Assembly: GCA_030537465.1 (NCBI GenBank)
Contig: JAUNMP010000014.1
Span: 1-44,943, forward strand
Length of the DNA: 44,943 bases
Direction of reading: 5' to 3'
Source: a bacterium
Lineage (GTDB): Bacteria; Verrucomicrobiota; Kiritimatiellia; RFP12; UBA1067
Below the pieces are notes generated by a model. It worked only from the letters and a program-made list of their open reading frames with translations. It ran no database searches and was not told the DNA's origin. The position numbers and the translations under genes are program-made. Positions 1 through 5,702 of the stretch are shown here, one piece after another. Positions within the stretch are counted from its first letter, which is position 1; each line of letters opens with the position of its first letter.

Positions 1-43
1 ATGGAAGCCCCCATTCGCGTCCGTGCTTTTTCTCCATTTGACA

Positions 44-94
44 CTGCGCCACAGTGGGCTACAGCGACATCGAATCTGCCAACATCGTCGGCTA
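44..94 (+). repeat. outer inverted repeat, left arm (partner 2827-2877)
   Basis: These 51 bp match the reverse complement of 2827-2877 at 46 positions. The differences are mostly in third codon positions, so the match reflects conserved coding (CATVGYSDIESAN). Upstream of the arm the two copies share nothing. This is the exact boundary at which both genes lose their 5' ends. Confidence 0.65.
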
Positions 95-812
95 CACTCA
101 GAAGGATGCTGCGCAGGGCAAGTTCCTGATCATCGGCGCGGGCTTCGAGGCTGTCCAGGGCGGAACGGCCATCAATGACATCGTTTCTGGTGTCCAGGGC
201 GTTGACTACGGTGACGGCATTGAATTCGTCAACCTCGCTGCGCAGATTCAGATCCCCAGTGCTTTGGGATATAACACCTACTACTTCCTGAATGATGGTT
301 GGTTTGACGATGGCTCTGAAGAGGGCGATGTGAAGGCTGGTTGGTGCGACAGTGTTGGTAACATTGTCGATGCGGAAATTGTTCCTGGGGTCGCCGCCTG
401 GTTCAAGAGCGTACCTTCAGATGGCTTTGCGACGGTTGCTGGCGAGGTCCCTGCGGATGTGTCCAAGTCAGTTGCTTGTCCAGAAGGGTTTGCTCTCCGT
501 GCCAATGCCTTCCCTGCCGAGATCCCTCTTAACGGTGATAAGATGACATCTGCCGACATCGTCGGTGTTGACTATGGCGATGGTATTGACTTCGTGAATA
601 CTGCTGCTCAGATTCAGGTCCCTAGTGCGCTTGGTTACAACACCTACTACTATCTTAATGATGGCTGGTATGACGATGGATCAGAAGAGGGCGCTACGAA
701 GGCCGGTTGGTGTGACAGCGTTGGAAATCTTGTTGATGCTGTGATTCCGGCCGGGCAGGGGTTCTGGACGAAAGGTACATCGGGTGCGTTCACTCTGACG
801 TTCACTAAGTAA
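54..812 (+). CDS. secreted SANIVGY-domain protein, 5' end missing
   Basis: The protein contains SANIVGY near the start, followed by two ~90-residue repeats. Each repeat has a QIQ(I/V)PSALGYNTYY block, a DDGSEEG block and an AGWCDSVGN block. It resembles the SAN(I/V)VGY secreted-protein type of PVC bacteria, whose function I do not know. The minus-strand gene at 2061-2837 is a paralogue. The only available start is a GTG at 54; an in-frame stop at 39-41 lies just upstream, yet the codons from 45 on (CATVGYSDIES) are conserved with the paralogue. The gene therefore once extended further 5' and has lost its start and signal peptide, so it may be silent. It is followed 51 bp later by a PEP-CTERM protein gene in the same direction. 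Confidence 0.6.
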   Translation: MGYSDIESANIVGYTQKDAAQGKFLIIGAGFEAVQGGTAINDIVSGVQGVDYGDGIEFVNLAAQIQIPSALGYNTYYFLNDGWFDDGSEEGDVKAGWCDSVGNIVDAEIVPGVAAWFKSVPSDGFATVAGEVPADVSKSVACPEGFALRANAFPAEIPLNGDKMTSADIVGVDYGDGIDFVNTAAQIQVPSALGYNTYYYLNDGWYDDGSEEGATKAGWCDSVGNLVDAVIPAGQGFWTKGTSGAFTLTFTK

Positions 813-863
813 ATAATTTCCACTCTACATTCAGCAGAGTGGGATAAAAAAGGAAAAAGGAAA

Positions 864-1385
864 ATGAAGAAATTAGTTATGATGTTGGTGTTAGTCGCGG
901 CGGTTGTCTCCGCCAAGGCTGCGTCTGTTGACTGGACGGTGGGTGCTACTGCCGCTCAGGATGGTTACACGGTTTATCTGCTCGCTGCTGAGCCTGGAGA
1001 ATTCGCCTCAGTGGCAGATCTTGCCAGTGCCGCTGTTGGTTCGGCAACTGTTGCTAAGTCTGGACGTTCATATACGACTGGACCTGTGACATCTGCTGGC
1101 GATGGTGTAACGAAGACGGCAGATTATTACTTTGCAATTGTTTCGTCTTCCGATGCTACATCCTTCAACTATGTGGCTGCTACTGGTCTCGGTGCTAAGG
1201 TGTACGACCCCGCCGCTCAAGAATCCTCTGCTGGCAATTTCAATACGATGTCTGCGGCGCAGATTGCTGCCGGTACATCGAAGTCCTTTGGCGGTGGCGG
1301 CGACGACCCCATTCCGGAGCCGACCTCTGGTCTGTTGCTTCTCGTCGGTGGTGCCATGCTGGCCCTCCGTCGCCGTCACGCCTAA
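864..1385 (+). CDS. PEP-CTERM sorting-signal surface protein
   Basis: This 173-residue protein starts with a clear signal peptide (MKKLVMMLVLVAAVVSAKA). It ends in a PEP-CTERM tail: a Gly-rich linker, Pro-Glu-Pro at residues 151-153, a Leu/Gly-rich membrane segment and a terminal RRR. Such tails are recognised by exosortases in other bacteria; none is encoded in this window. The middle is an Ala/Ser/Thr-rich domain I do not recognise. A purine-rich ribosome site (AAAAAGGAAA) precedes the ATG. The gene follows the SANIVGY gene and is paired with it as 1491-2018 is with 2061-2837. Its last 65-bp block is almost identical, in inverted orientation, to the end of the gene at 1491-2018. Confidence 0.85.
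   Translation: MKKLVMMLVLVAAVVSAKAASVDWTVGATAAQDGYTVYLLAAEPGEFASVADLASAAVGSATVAKSGRSYTTGPVTSAGDGVTKTADYYFAIVSSSDATSFNYVAATGLGAKVYDPAAQESSAGNFNTMSAAQIAAGTSKSFGGGGDDPIPEPTSGLLLLVGGAMLALRRRHA
1287..1351 (+). repeat. inner inverted repeat, left arm (partner 1525-1589)
   Basis: 65 bp encoding the PEP-CTERM tail match the reverse complement of 1525-1589 at 64 of 65 positions, while the rest of the two genes has diverged strongly. The arms are 173 bp apart around the terminator. Confidence 0.85.
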
Positions 1386-1430
1386 TGGCGGATGGAAGAC
1401 TCGGTTCGTCTGAGTCAGAGAAAACAGAAA

Positions 1431-1456
1431 CACCGCAGTCCTTCTGGACTGCGGTG
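1431..1456. terminator. bidirectional intrinsic terminator
   Basis: A perfect 11-bp stem (CACCGCAGTCC / GGACTGCGGTG) with a TTCT loop sits midway between two convergent genes. It has A-rich sequence on the left and T-rich sequence on the right, so it can terminate both. Confidence 0.85.
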
Positions 1457-1490
1457 TTTCCACTTTTAGGATTCTAGATCCTATGCCATC

Positions 1491-2018
1491 TTACTTCTGT
1501 TTGCGGCGAAGCGCGAGCATCGCGCCACCGACGAGAAGCAACAGACCAGAGGTCGGTTCCGGAATGGGGTCGTCGCCGCCACCGCCAAACGAGTTGCCCG
1601 ACGAAGTGATGCTGGCGGAACTGAGGGAGGTATTCTGTCCAGGGGAGCTTTCCTGTGCTCCCGGATCATAGACCGACCCAGTCATATTCGCCACGGATGT
1701 GACGTCATACGTCGAGCCATCGGCAGACACGATCACATAATAAATGCTCGTCCCATCTTTAGAGTAAGAGCTGGACTCCGCAGAACCCGTAGCAGTATAC
1801 TTCGTTCCAGACTTCTTCACGACACCAGAGTCGGTTGCGGCAGCACTAACTGCATCAACCGATTCCCATGTCGTCTGGGCGGTTTCGCCAACGAGGACGT
1901 AGATTGTCTTACCGACATCATCCTTCGTAGCACCGTATTTCCAGTCAAGCGCGGCAGCCTGGCTGAAGAGCGCAGCCATAGCAACGGCTGCCAAAACAAC
2001 TATTTTCTTCATTTTCAT
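1491..2018 (-). CDS. PEP-CTERM sorting-signal surface protein, inverted paralogue
   Basis: This 175-residue protein starts MKMKKIVVLAAVAMAALFSQAAA, a signal peptide. It ends in the same Gly-rich, Pro-Glu-Pro (153-155), membrane-segment and RRK tail as the gene at 864-1385. The start follows an AAGGAAA ribosome site. The central domain (LDWKYGATKDDVGKTIYVLV) aligns in pattern with DWTVGATAAQDGYTVYLL of its partner, so the two are homologous but divergent except for the C-terminal tail. It is the downstream member of the minus-strand cassette with 2061-2837. Export and exosortase processing are inferred from the family. Confidence 0.85.
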   Translation of the reverse strand: MKMKKIVVLAAVAMAALFSQAAALDWKYGATKDDVGKTIYVLVGETAQTTWESVDAVSAAATDSGVVKKSGTKYTATGSAESSSYSKDGTSIYYVIVSADGSTYDVTSVANMTGSVYDPGAQESSPGQNTSLSSASITSSGNSFGGGGDDPIPEPTSGLLLLVGGAMLALRRKQK

Positions 2019-2060
2019 TTTCCTTGTTTGTTTCTACAGACCAACAGCGATCTGCAAATC

Positions 2061-2837
2061 TTACTTCTTGAAGGTAATGGTGAACGCAGCACCAACGCCC
2101 TTCGTCCAAAAGCCCTGACCGGCGGGGACATCACCCGTCAAGTCCGATTCGGCATCACCGGCAATAACACCGTTGGAATCGCACCAACCAGCCTTGTAAC
2201 CACCATCCTCGGTACCATTGTCATACCATCCATTGGACAGATAGTAGTAGACATCGTATGTACCCTTCGCATTCGGAACCTGGATCTGCGAAGCCGTGTT
2301 GACGAAGTTGTCGTCATCAATGTCCCCAGCCGTAAGACCAGAATACGAGACCTTATCGGCATCGTTCAGATTAAACGCAATCGGATACACATTGGCACGC
2401 AACGCAAATTTAGCAGGAGCTTGGACTTCAACGCTGTCATCCGAAGGAACCTGACCCGCCTGGACGAAGGTTTCTGCCGCGCCAACGTCTTTGACCCAAG
2501 CAGAAAGACCAGCCGTCAGCTGTCCATCAAGGTCGGCATCATCCTCACCAGCAATAACACCATTGGAATCACACCAACCAGGTTTGAAGTCGCCATCTTC
2601 CGTCCCGTTGTCAAACCAACCATTTGTCAAATAATAATAAATATCATAGGTTCCCTTGGCGTTCGGAACCTGCATCTGGGCGGCAGTCTTCGTGAACAAA
2701 CCGTCTTCATCGGCTTCAACGCCCGTCAGTCCACTGACGAGCTGGTTGATGTCCATCGTGCCGTCCATGCCCTCGAACTGGACGCCGAGGATGTAGAACT
2801 TGCCCTTGTCCAGGGACTTGTTCTGATAGCCGACCAC
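2061..2837 (-). CDS. secreted SANVVGY-domain protein, 5' end missing
   Basis: The protein has two ~90-residue repeats with QIQVPNAKGTYDVYYYL, DNGTEDG and AGWCDSNGVIAG blocks, paralogous to 54-812. The listed start is an internal GTG. The conserved frame (LCATVGYSDIESAN) continues upstream to about 2879 and then runs open without a plausible ATG or signal peptide. The true N-terminus has therefore been lost or replaced next to the divergent recombinase gene. The break is at the same codon as in the plus-strand copy. Possibly a silent copy; alternatively translation could start in an unrelated upstream leader. Confidence 0.6.
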   Translation of the reverse strand: MVGYQNKSLDKGKFYILGVQFEGMDGTMDINQLVSGLTGVEADEDGLFTKTAAQMQVPNAKGTYDIYYYLTNGWFDNGTEDGDFKPGWCDSNGVIAGEDDADLDGQLTAGLSAWVKDVGAAETFVQAGQVPSDDSVEVQAPAKFALRANVYPIAFNLNDADKVSYSGLTAGDIDDDNFVNTASQIQVPNAKGTYDVYYYLSNGWYDNGTEDGGYKAGWCDSNGVIAGDAESDLTGDVPAGQGFWTKGVGAAFTITFKK

Positions 2838-2877
2838 GTTGGCAGATTCAATGTCGCTGTAACCGACTGTGGCGCAG
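2827..2877 (-). repeat. outer inverted repeat, right arm (partner 44-94)
   Basis: Reverse complement of 44-94 with five differences. It lies 83 bp from the start of the recombinase gene, so the two arms bracket the whole 2.8-kb surface-protein block. Confidence 0.65.
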
Positions 2878-2960
2878 AGGGGATGAGAAGTAGGGGTACG
2901 AGGTTCGGTAGAATGTCTTTTCTCAAATGGTAGAACAACCGCTGATTGGAAAGGATGAAA

Positions 2961-3857
2961 ATGAAACCAACGATCGAACAGGTGATGAAGTGCTACCGGG
3001 TGGTGGCGATGACGGAACGGGCGAAGACGGGACGGCCGGGCGAAGAGACGGTCATGAACTGTTTGCGAGGAACACGGTGCGTGTGCGAGGCGGCGGGGCT
3101 GGCGTTGTCGTCGTCCGTGGATGAAGTGACACGCCAGCGGATTGATGCAGCTTTGGCAGATTTTATGGCGCGGGGTATCTCACGGCTCTCGGCCTGGAGC
3201 TATGTCTGTCAGCTACGTGGGATTTTCGCCCGATGGTGTCTGCCATACTATCGGGATGCCGGTTGGGAGATCCCCAAGCTGGAACTTCCGGCTTTCCGCG
3301 CCCAGCCTCCCCGCTATGTGCGCCCGTGTCCCGAAGTTCTGTCGCGAGTGAAAGGATGGTATCAAAGCCTGTGCCGTCAGGTGAAGAAGGGGACTGCGGT
3401 GAGTGGAGAACTGTGGCTGGCCGCGACGATGATGCTCGAGTTCGCCATGCGCAACGGAGATGTCCTGCGTCTCACAGATGACAACTTCGTACTTCGGGAA
3501 GAGCAGCATTTTCTCTCCTACATCCCCCACAAGACGGAACTCACATCCGGGCGTCGGGTGTTTTGGCCGATCCATCCGGACATCTGGTCGATTATCGACG
3601 ACTTCGGTGGCATGCGGTGCTTCGACCTGACGGACGAGGTGTTTGTCGAAATGAACCGGCAACTGCGTGCTCTCGGAATGCACGGTTCCAAGGCCTCCTA
3701 TGAACTTCGCAAGATCTGCGTCGACCACGTCTACCAGAAGTTCGGTGCCGAAATGGCTGTCTCAATTTCCGGTGACGATATTCGTACCATCTCCCGCTAC
3801 TATGCCGATCCCGCTCAGCCGAATATTGGATCTGTGCGGATCGTGGATTTGTTGTAG
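2961..3857 (+). CDS. tyrosine recombinase/integrase with atypical active site
   Basis: This is a 298-residue member of the phage-integrase fold. An N-terminal helical core-binding-like part (1-110) precedes the catalytic part. Visible elements are Arg164 in FAMRNGDVL, Lys191 in HKTEL, the box II region YELRK (Arg250) and a terminal SRYYADP with Tyr280/281. The usual His of HxxR is Tyr247, and the usual GH motif appears as SGDD, so two histidine positions are replaced. ATG 2961 is chosen because GGAAAGG lies six bases upstream; ATG 2955 and TTG 2946 are alternatives. It is divergent from the truncated surface gene and heads the cassette island. Its last codons (VRIVDLL) and downstream sequence recur at 4829, which suggests an attachment or recombination site overlapping its 3' end. 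Confidence 0.8.
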   Translation: MKPTIEQVMKCYRVVAMTERAKTGRPGEETVMNCLRGTRCVCEAAGLALSSSVDEVTRQRIDAALADFMARGISRLSAWSYVCQLRGIFARWCLPYYRDAGWEIPKLELPAFRAQPPRYVRPCPEVLSRVKGWYQSLCRQVKKGTAVSGELWLAATMMLEFAMRNGDVLRLTDDNFVLREEQHFLSYIPHKTELTSGRRVFWPIHPDIWSIIDDFGGMRCFDLTDEVFVEMNRQLRALGMHGSKASYELRKICVDHVYQKFGAEMAVSISGDDIRTISRYYADPAQPNIGSVRIVDLL

Positions 3858-4122
3858 CCGGTTCTTTCCTGGCGGACTGTCCCCACGTGGGCACATTCGA
3901 CGCCCGTCGATTCGGCTCCGCTTTGGCTCGGCGAGGGAAACTCTTTGCCGGTCACGGAGTGACCGGCCCCCGGTGAGGAGTCTTCGTGCGTGCTCGCTGT
4001 TGCGTAGGTGGGATTACGCCTCGGAGCGTTCCGCAGCGAAATCCCACGTGCGGGTAGGCGGGGGAGCGCCCCCAAATCGCTTGATGCGACGGAGGTACTT
4101 CCAGACCCAACTTGTGGACCGA
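3833..4122. repeat. composite separator repeat R1
   Basis: This non-coding stretch follows the recombinase. In order it holds the VRIVDLL-stop block shared with 4829, an imperfect GGACTGTCCCC palindrome, CCCACGTGGG, a TCGATTCGGCTCCGC block, the hairpin GCCGGTCAC-GGA-GTGACCGGC (3947-3967), and one copy of the 36-bp quasi-palindrome (4010-4045). All parts recur elsewhere in the island. Confidence 0.8.
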
Positions 4123-4157
4123 TGCTTATGCCTGAAGCGCCTGGATTATGATATACT
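4123..4157 (+). promoter_or_regulatory. cassette promoter, extended -10 TGATATACT
   Basis: TGA-TATACT lies at 4149-4157. The 35 bp around and before it are almost identical to 7212-7245, so two different DUF4160 modules carry the same promoter block. Confidence 0.7.
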
Positions 4158-4196
4158 GACCGCGCTTGCAAAGTCCACTTGAATGAGGGAACCGCA

Positions 4197-4478
4197 ATGC
4201 CCAGCATTTCACATTTTTACGGATTAATCATTTGGCTCTACTGGGATGAGAGCCGGAGTAAACATCATTGTCCGCATATTCATGCCGAATATTCGGGTAA
4301 ATGGGCCGTTGTCTCCATCCCGGAAGGAGAACTCCTCGAGCAGGACGACGAATTCCCGGCAAAGAAACTTCGTATGGTTCAAACATGGATCGACATTCAT
4401 GCCGAGGAGTTGATGGCGGATTGGTCGCTTGCCATCAACCATAATGAAGTGTTCAAGATTCGTGGTCTTGATGCGTGA
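4197..4478 (+). CDS. DUF4160 family protein
   Basis: This 93-residue protein starts MPSISHFYGLIIWLYWDES and continues with HCPHIHAEYSGK and a C-terminal EELMADWSLA block. These features fit the DUF4160 family, small proteins often found next to DUF2442 and frequently listed as putative toxin-antitoxin components without a proven activity. Start ATG 4197 is preceded six bases upstream by AGGGA; the earlier ATG at 4182 lacks a site. The stop overlaps the extended reading frame of the next gene, so the two are translationally close. It sits in a module flanked by the composite repeats R1 and R2. Confidence 0.8.
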   Translation: MPSISHFYGLIIWLYWDESRSKHHCPHIHAEYSGKWAVVSIPEGELLEQDDEFPAKKLRMVQTWIDIHAEELMADWSLAINHNEVFKIRGLDA

Positions 4479-4489
4479 GGGGGGGGAAG

Positions 4490-4747
4490 ATGTTGTCTTA
4501 TCGGAAAACAGTCTCTGCGAAGCATCTTGATGGCATGAATATCTCCGTGACATTCGACAATGGCACGTGCGGGGTCTTTGACTTCACGCCGTACGTTGAC
4601 TATCCGTGTTACCGTAAGCTTCGCGACCCCGAGTTCTTCGCTCTCGTACGTGCAGAGCATGGTACTCTCATGTGGCCGGGAGAGATTGACATTTCCCCTG
4701 AAACCGTGTGGGAACAGGCACGATCAAAGTCTTCTCCCCAGAGATGA
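4490..4747 (+). CDS. DUF2442 family protein
   Basis: This 85-residue protein has ISVTFDNGTCGVFDFTPYVDYPCYRKL, FFALVRAEHGTLMWPG and EIDISPETVWEQA segments, the pattern of DUF2442. Start ATG 4490 has a strong GGGGGGAAG ribosome site immediately upstream and lies 11 bp after the DUF4160 stop, so the pair forms one transcript from the promoter at 4149. DUF2442 partners of DUF4160 are suspected to be antitoxins; that role is inference here. Confidence 0.8.
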   Translation: MLSYRKTVSAKHLDGMNISVTFDNGTCGVFDFTPYVDYPCYRKLRDPEFFALVRAEHGTLMWPGEIDISPETVWEQARSKSSPQR

Positions 4748-5016
4748 AGTACGAATATGCCTATCAAACGCCAGACGGCATGTGACACGTGGAGGAAATG
4801 GAAGCTCCTTCGCGTGAGATGGTAGGAACAGTGCGGATTGTGGATTTGTTGTAGCCGGTTCTTCTCTGGGGACTGTCCCCACGTGGGCACATTCGACGCC
4901 TGTCGATTCCCGTCGACTCCCGTCGATTCGGCTCCGCAGCACCCTGACGCGACGAGCCGTCGCGTCTACGAGCGGGGCCTTGTGTGCGGGCTTCATGCGT
5001 GCTCACAGTCGCGTAG

Positions 5017-5052
5017 GTGGGATTACGCTTCGGAGCGCTCCGAAGCGTAATC
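5017..5052. repeat. perfect 36-bp palindrome
   Basis: Each 18-base half (GGGATTACGCTTCGGAGC) is followed by its exact reverse complement. Degenerate copies lie at 4010-4045, 5613-5648, 7113-7148 and 9989-10024, always in the same orientation relative to a preceding GTAGGT-like or CGCAGGT flank. Confidence 0.9.
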
Positions 5053-5184
5053 CCGCGTGCGGATGTCCCCGCGCAGACACACTCGATTCCTGCCGATTCC
5101 CGTCGAATCCTGCCGATTCAACCCTGTGTTGACCTATAATGCGCACCGGAATCGCCTGGCGGTCTCTACCTGGAGGTTGGGGAG

Positions 5185-5316
5185 TCGGGCCTGCCCGTCG
5201 TGAGATTTGGGCCTGCCCGGCGATGCTTTCGGGCCTGCCCGACAACGCGTTCGGGCCTGCCCGAAAGGTCCGTCGGGCGGGCCCGCGAGAGTGTTTGGGC
5301 AGGCCCAAATGAGCGG
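5185..5316. repeat. array of six 22-bp palindromic units
   Basis: A GGGCNNGCCC-type core starts at 5187, 5209, 5231, 5253, 5275 and 5297, exactly 22 bp apart. Each core is followed by about 10 bp that vary between units. Flanking bases change in compensating fashion (CGGGC/GCCCG against TTTGGGC/GCCCAAA). Related separators hold two units (9776-9807) or one degenerate unit (about 11537-11548). Confidence 0.85.
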
Positions 5317-5702
5317 ACGCGCCGGCCTAGGCGAATCGACGGGAGTCGGCTGGTGCTGTCGTAAGGGCATTCAAGTCGTCCCAGAGCCGAGTCGACGGGA
5401 ATCGACGGGAGTCGAGTTGTCCGTACGGAGAGGAGTTCCAATTAATAATTGCCCATTGGCGTGCAAACTGCGTGCGAAGCACCGCTCATTGCAACTCGAT
5501 TCCCGTCGACTCCTGTCGACTCCCGTCGACTCGGCTCCGCTCGGGGCTCGGCGCGGGCTTCACTTTGCCGGTCACGGAGTGACCGGCCCCCGTATTGGTG
5601 GCTGCCGCAGGTGGGATTACGCTTCGGAACGTTCCGCGGCGAAATCCCGCGTGCGGGCTGGGCTGGGGACAGTCCCCTCTGCGTTCGACACGAATAGGGA
5701 CA

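Follow-up and report, generated by a model that had tools for sequence, protein, structure and literature searches.

Headless surface-protein cassettes beside a tyrosine recombinase in a Kiritimatiellae genome: probable silent units of an expression-site switch

The window, i.e., the whole stretch of 44,943 nucleotides that was analysed, is contig C330 of a metagenome assembly with 438 contigs (genome G000). The two cassettes at its left end are very probably silent units of an expression-site switch that acts site-specifically and is driven by the adjoining recombinase (probability of about 0.83). Kiritimatiellae are ruminant gut bacteria, known here from metagenome assemblies alone. In the proposed switch, the promoter, a long 5' UTR, the ribosome-binding site and some 14 codons of the signal peptide (MKKLMIAAAAALCA..) would come from one expression site per genome. 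A short site, approximately CTSTGYGCSRCAGT, would be recombined by the tyrosine recombinase beside the cassettes; in the leader this site would fall within the signal-peptide codons, and in each silent cassette at the 5' edge. The exchange would set a new SANxVGY gene and its downstream PEP-CTERM gene in frame after the leader. A single cassette would then be expressed, secreted and presumably anchored, and the surface would vary.

Cassettes in the window and the leader elsewhere in the genome

Two convergent cassettes, each with a SANxVGY gene and a PEP-CTERM gene, had been described in an earlier note as bracketed by inverted arms, and this layout was confirmed. The features of the window are as follows.

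44–94, forward strand: left arm and start of cassette A; candidate crossover site CTGCGCCACAGT at 44–55, signal-peptide codons C-A-T-V
48–812, forward strand: cassette A gene 1, headless SANxVGY protein with two internal repeats, intact up to the stop
864–1385, forward strand: cassette A gene 2, intact PEP-CTERM protein with its own signal peptide
1281–1373, forward strand, with 1503–1595: 93-nt inverted repeat (90%), 3' ends common to both PEP-CTERM genes
1429–1461, no strand: perfect hairpin AACACCGCAGTCC..GGACTGCGGTGTT in the gap separating the two cassettes, seen in the sequence
1491–2018, reverse strand: cassette B gene 2, intact PEP-CTERM protein with its own signal peptide
2061–2873, reverse strand: cassette B gene 1, SANxVGY protein, also headless and with 54% identity to its counterpart in A
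2827–2877, reverse strand: right arm and start of cassette B; candidate crossover site CTCTGCGCCACAGT at 2879–2866
2961–3857, forward strand: divergent tyrosine recombinase of a conserved family, 298 aa (frame of 303 codons), modelled with AF2

Both SANxVGY genes start at the identical point within the signal-peptide region. The loss of start codon and signal peptide at the same codon, which the earlier note had claimed for the cassettes, was found for the two SANxVGY genes and did not hold for the PEP-CTERM genes, which are intact with their own ATG and signal peptide. The TIGR02595 C-terminal sorting domain was present above the cut-off in the PEP-CTERM genes of both cassettes. The frame of cassette A gene 1 opens at 42 with an in-frame TGA immediately upstream and has no start codon; that of cassette B gene 1 is open to 3179, and ATG, GTG and TTG are absent before the mature region. 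The predicted structure of the SANxVGY protein was all-beta with two repeats (pLDDT of 83), and no structural match was obtained when the model was compared with the PDB. The hairpin at 1429–1461 is likely a bidirectional terminator; it was not among the predictions of the terminator scan, which was uninformative on GC-rich sequence. Homologous recombination could also occur at the 93-nt inverted repeat.

The two arms were 51 nt each, 90% complementary and spaced by 2732 nt. The 26-nt core of the arm occurred in two copies only in the window, against 0.00 expected from shuffles. Most of the arm length is coding sequence common to both cassettes, and the leader shares just 12–14 nt of it. When the starts of A and B were compared, the similarity began at CTGCGCC, with 49 of 60 nt identical downstream and 12 of 38 nt, the chance level, upstream. 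Inversion between the window arms alone would merely swap two silent cassettes; expression would require an exchange with the leader site.

The left flank was limited to 43 nt because window position 1 is the end of the contig, and a second copy of this end, sought across the own genome, was not found. Leaders were searched for by a pattern, namely a signal-peptide start followed by the crossover site. The leader of the own genome (G000:C406:1–47) had a promoter-like site and a long 5' UTR, then MKKLMIAAAAALCATV, and read ATGAAGAAACTTATGATTGCCGCCGCGGCCGCGCTCTGCGCCACAGT directly before the contig end. The contig terminated at the exact base where A (G) and B (C) part. The stretch common to leader and cassette was 12 nt long for A and 14 nt for B, and a common word of 14 nt is below the k-mer size normally used by assemblers. 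An overlap of this size should not mislead an assembler, so that the leader probably runs on into at least two sequences; the position of the break suggests that reads from the C406 leader enter at least two continuations. In silico, the leader was joined in frame into A (267 aa) and B (283 aa) with no internal stops, and the joined protein began with MKKLMIAAAAALCATVGYSDIESAN... in both cases. The exact 12-nt word CTGCGCCACAGT had five copies in 5.2 Mb, i.e., the leader, A, B and two unrelated places, one of them inside a recombinase-like gene.

The earlier proposal of silent cassettes that are switched onto an expressed leader located beyond the window gained support, since the leader on C406 ends at the common site and relatives hold leader-bearing cassettes at the same site. 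Leader and cassettes were on separate contigs in the own genome. This genome was searched by protein, site pattern and PEP-CTERM domain for a third cassette, and A and B were the only ones found. A third, unassembled cassette may hence exist, since the one now behind the leader was not found. With a switch of this type, metagenome assemblies would break at the switch sites, and the expressed surface gene would easily be missing from bins.

A promoter-like sequence was located about 95–230 nt upstream of the leader ATG; judged by eye, it was close to the consensus in several genomes but less so in the own genome. The promoter scan of C406, uninformative on GC-rich sequence, did not report this site. 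The leader 5' UTRs were long and had a conserved hairpin, GCGRT-CYGGGW-AYCGC (L115:48–262, reverse strand; L116, L117, L119, L121, L123 and L184), in which G-U, G-C and A-U pair types were found at one position. The hairpin may be a regulatory RNA belonging to the expression site. The search of the leader UTRs against Rfam gave no match to the hairpin, only two unrelated tRNAs.

Recurrence of the leader, the site and the cassettes in relatives

Full-length versions at the same place were sought in other genomes, and the opposite was found: relatives hold headless cassettes beside the same recombinase. Headless SANxVGY genes beside this recombinase family were present in 12 genomes (G000, G014, G046, G047, G058, G069, G073, G084, G085, G095, G109 and the record L148), and in seven of the 12 the headless start was 67–396 nt from the recombinase gene. 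The layout of the window, with two convergent headless cassettes and the recombinase at one end, was repeated in G014, G046 and G047. A further headless candidate (L152 in G059) was excluded from the count, as it was 5 kb from the recombinase and had no recognisable site. The contig of L148, with recombinase and headless cassette, is labelled Bacteroidaceae and is probably mis-binned. Some relatives, including genomes of the same genus, have full-length SANxVGY genes instead, which, like the many recombinase loci in relatives without a headless cassette on their contig, weighs against the proposed switch. In G001 (L069, L071), such full-length genes had near-identical leaders MKKMMFAFAAAAAIGAFAIESAN, with two of three at contig ends; they point to another kind of variation within the genus, perhaps driven by repeats.

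Leaders matching MKK....LCA(A/T)V were found at the same point in 13 genomes, i.e., the own genome (L115) and 12 others. In the five genomes with both forms, the leader and silent copies were near-identical downstream of CTC|TGYGCSRCAGT and at the chance level upstream. Six of the 13 leader contigs terminated no more than 60 nt past the site, against 0.07 expected if contig ends were random. Another contig end, in G014 (C15:1–39), fell exactly at the A/B divergence point of that genome. The leader contig of G047 terminated in AAGCGGACGT, and the cassette contig opened with the identical 10 nt. The coding start of the leader was identical in L116 (G014:C233) and L117 (G088:C41), from genomes of different genera, which suggests horizontal transfer of the switch or mis-binning. 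G085, G095 and G059, which have near-identical recombinases, were compared for swapped cassettes, but the cassettes were too divergent to reveal exchange.

The leader and a silent cassette were assembled on one contig in two relatives. In G058:C16, the leader, followed by its SANxVGY and PEP-CTERM genes, and a headless cassette whose genes match these face each other; the two sites were in inverted orientation at a distance of 8.2 kb, with 88% agreement over 59 nt, and the same contig also held the recombinase. In G111:C157, the leader and headless cassettes were inverted and 11.5 kb apart, and the recombinases of that genome were on other contigs. Since the sites are inverted in these two fully assembled relatives, the exchange would invert the intervening DNA. 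Two to three more homologous genes came after the PEP-CTERM gene, in the expressed as well as the silent copy (L059/L120 in G058:C16; L184 in G111:C157), so the exchanged unit could reach several kilobases. In G046, the leader was 565 nt past the silent B site and directed away from it; a small invertible leader segment is a possible alternative topology there.

The contig breaks and alternative joins may also be viewed as metagenome strains with permanent, different leader–cassette fusions, in which case switching would be rare or only evolutionary. All the genomes are metagenome assemblies, and mixed strains break assembly graphs too. However, the start-less silent cassettes retain open frames and a conserved site, which suggests ongoing use, and entire switches with inverted sites occurred on single contigs, one of them including the recombinase. 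This explanation was considered unlikely.

The recombinase as the candidate switch enzyme

The recombinase gene starts with ATG at 2961, 84 bp past the right arm, as the earlier note had placed it. The AF2 model (pLDDT of 91.2) had the two-domain tyrosine recombinase fold according to Foldseek, which matched it to XerH (E of 3.8e-5), Cre, lambda Int, XerA, IntI and Tn1549 Int with a probability of 1.00. These relatives found by structure are general tyrosine recombinases. The comparison of folds was used because the recombinase profile gave only chance matches to PDB sequences. The window recombinase had no match to Pfam Phage_integrase, and the matches were weak in five of 24 homologues (9.3e-4 at best). 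R164, K191, R250 and Y280/Y281 were invariant in 24 and in 36 homologues and correspond to the catalytic Arg I, Lys, Arg II and Tyr, as assigned from motif spacing rather than superposition. The usual His II and His/Trp III positions were invariantly Y247 and D272 in the same two sets, and this replacement of two catalytic histidines weighs against the proposed switch. The family was present in 39 of the 115 genomes searched in the taxonomic family and, across 388 genomes sampled evenly from the phylum, was confined to this order. The relatives were mostly Kiritimatiellae from ruminant gut samples; others were labelled as uncultured bacterium or Verrucomicrobia/Lentisphaerae, and one record as Bacteroidaceae. 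The enzyme encoded at 2961–3857 is likely the switch enzyme.

Real exchange could also proceed by general homologous recombination, i.e., RecA gene conversion or inversion at the 51-nt and 93-nt repeats, with the recombinase as a bystander. These inverted repeats do exist with 90% identity, and headless cassettes were absent from the contigs of many recombinase loci in relatives. By contrast, the leader and cassettes of G000 have just 12–14 nt in common before they diverge, and identity of this length is far under the usual requirement of homologous recombination. Moreover, several genomes show a sharp edge at one and the same site, and the same recombinase family lies 67–396 nt from headless starts in many genomes. 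Exchange of this kind was hence judged improbable. It is most improbable of all that the headless genes are decayed duplicates lying tail to tail beside a mobile-element remnant: convergent gene duplicates often yield inverted repeats, but the truncation point is identical in A, B and many genomes despite unrelated upstream DNA, the frames are intact and the leader ends at that point.

Comparison with known switches and neighbouring sequence

Site-specific inversion connects alternative surface genes to a single expressed 5' end in the multiple inversion model of Dichelobacter nodosus Omp1 and in Moraxella bovis pilin; the enzymes and genes differ from those described here. At the level of mechanism, the Vsa system (HvsR) of Mycoplasma pulmonis was the closest, in which silent 3' ends receive the promoter, the RBS and the first 714 nt (PMC2268961). 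As there, one expression site would give the promoter, RBS and 5' gene part here, the silent genes are without 5' ends, and a tyrosine recombinase gene is nearby. The Vsa-type features found here were an expression site (with its promoter assigned by sequence likeness), headless genes sharing a site and an adjoining recombinase. The phylum, genes and site are different, and the constant part comprises 714 coding nt in Vsa against about 45 nt of signal peptide here. Because the constant part is so short, the whole mature protein would change, and the downstream PEP-CTERM gene would be exchanged as well. In region EE of Bacteroides fragilis, the ragA/susC shufflon has inverted repeats that overlap gene starts and two-gene outer-membrane cassettes behind one promoter (PMC5729914). 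Repeats overlapping the gene starts and the exchange of gene pairs are common to that SusC/D shufflon and the switch proposed here, whereas the genes, host phylum and site differ and the promoter itself is also invertible there. In Akkermansia muciniphila, which also belongs to Verrucomicrobiota, DNA invertons near PEP-CTERM genes are short and promoter-type (PMC11892184), in contrast to the proposed exchange of headless coding cassettes.

We consider it rather probable that a shufflon of whole secreted-protein operons is driven by a Kiritimatiellae-centred recombinase family whose active site is altered (Arg, Lys, Tyr, Arg, Asp, Tyr), through a site of about 14 bp that encodes part of the signal peptide, and that this is a dedicated antigenic-variation system new to the group. 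The literature search found no paper linking Kiritimatiellae to phase variation or PEP-CTERM proteins. The headless cassettes, the leader, the common site, the continuous frame, the recurrence beside one recombinase family, the modelled fold and the contig breaks at the site were observed, whereas recombination activity and the expression of one cassette at a time are inferred. Anchoring at the surface and a function in the evasion of phages or the host are suggested by the PEP-CTERM domain and by comparable systems. If true, the switch would account for surface variation against phages, host immunity or changing substrates. With the crossover inside the signal peptide, every mature residue could vary while secretion remained constant, and the enzyme would combine unusual active-site residues with a short asymmetric site.

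Other sequences were observed next to the recombinase. A small pair of genes, DUF4160 then DUF2442, adjoins it at 4179–4747 of the window. Interspersed repeats were found downstream of it at 3878–5540, comprising a GTCGA-rich family of 56 nt, families of 52 and 48 nt, and CGGGCCTGCCCG units spaced by 22 nt. Some of these repeats recur on C406.
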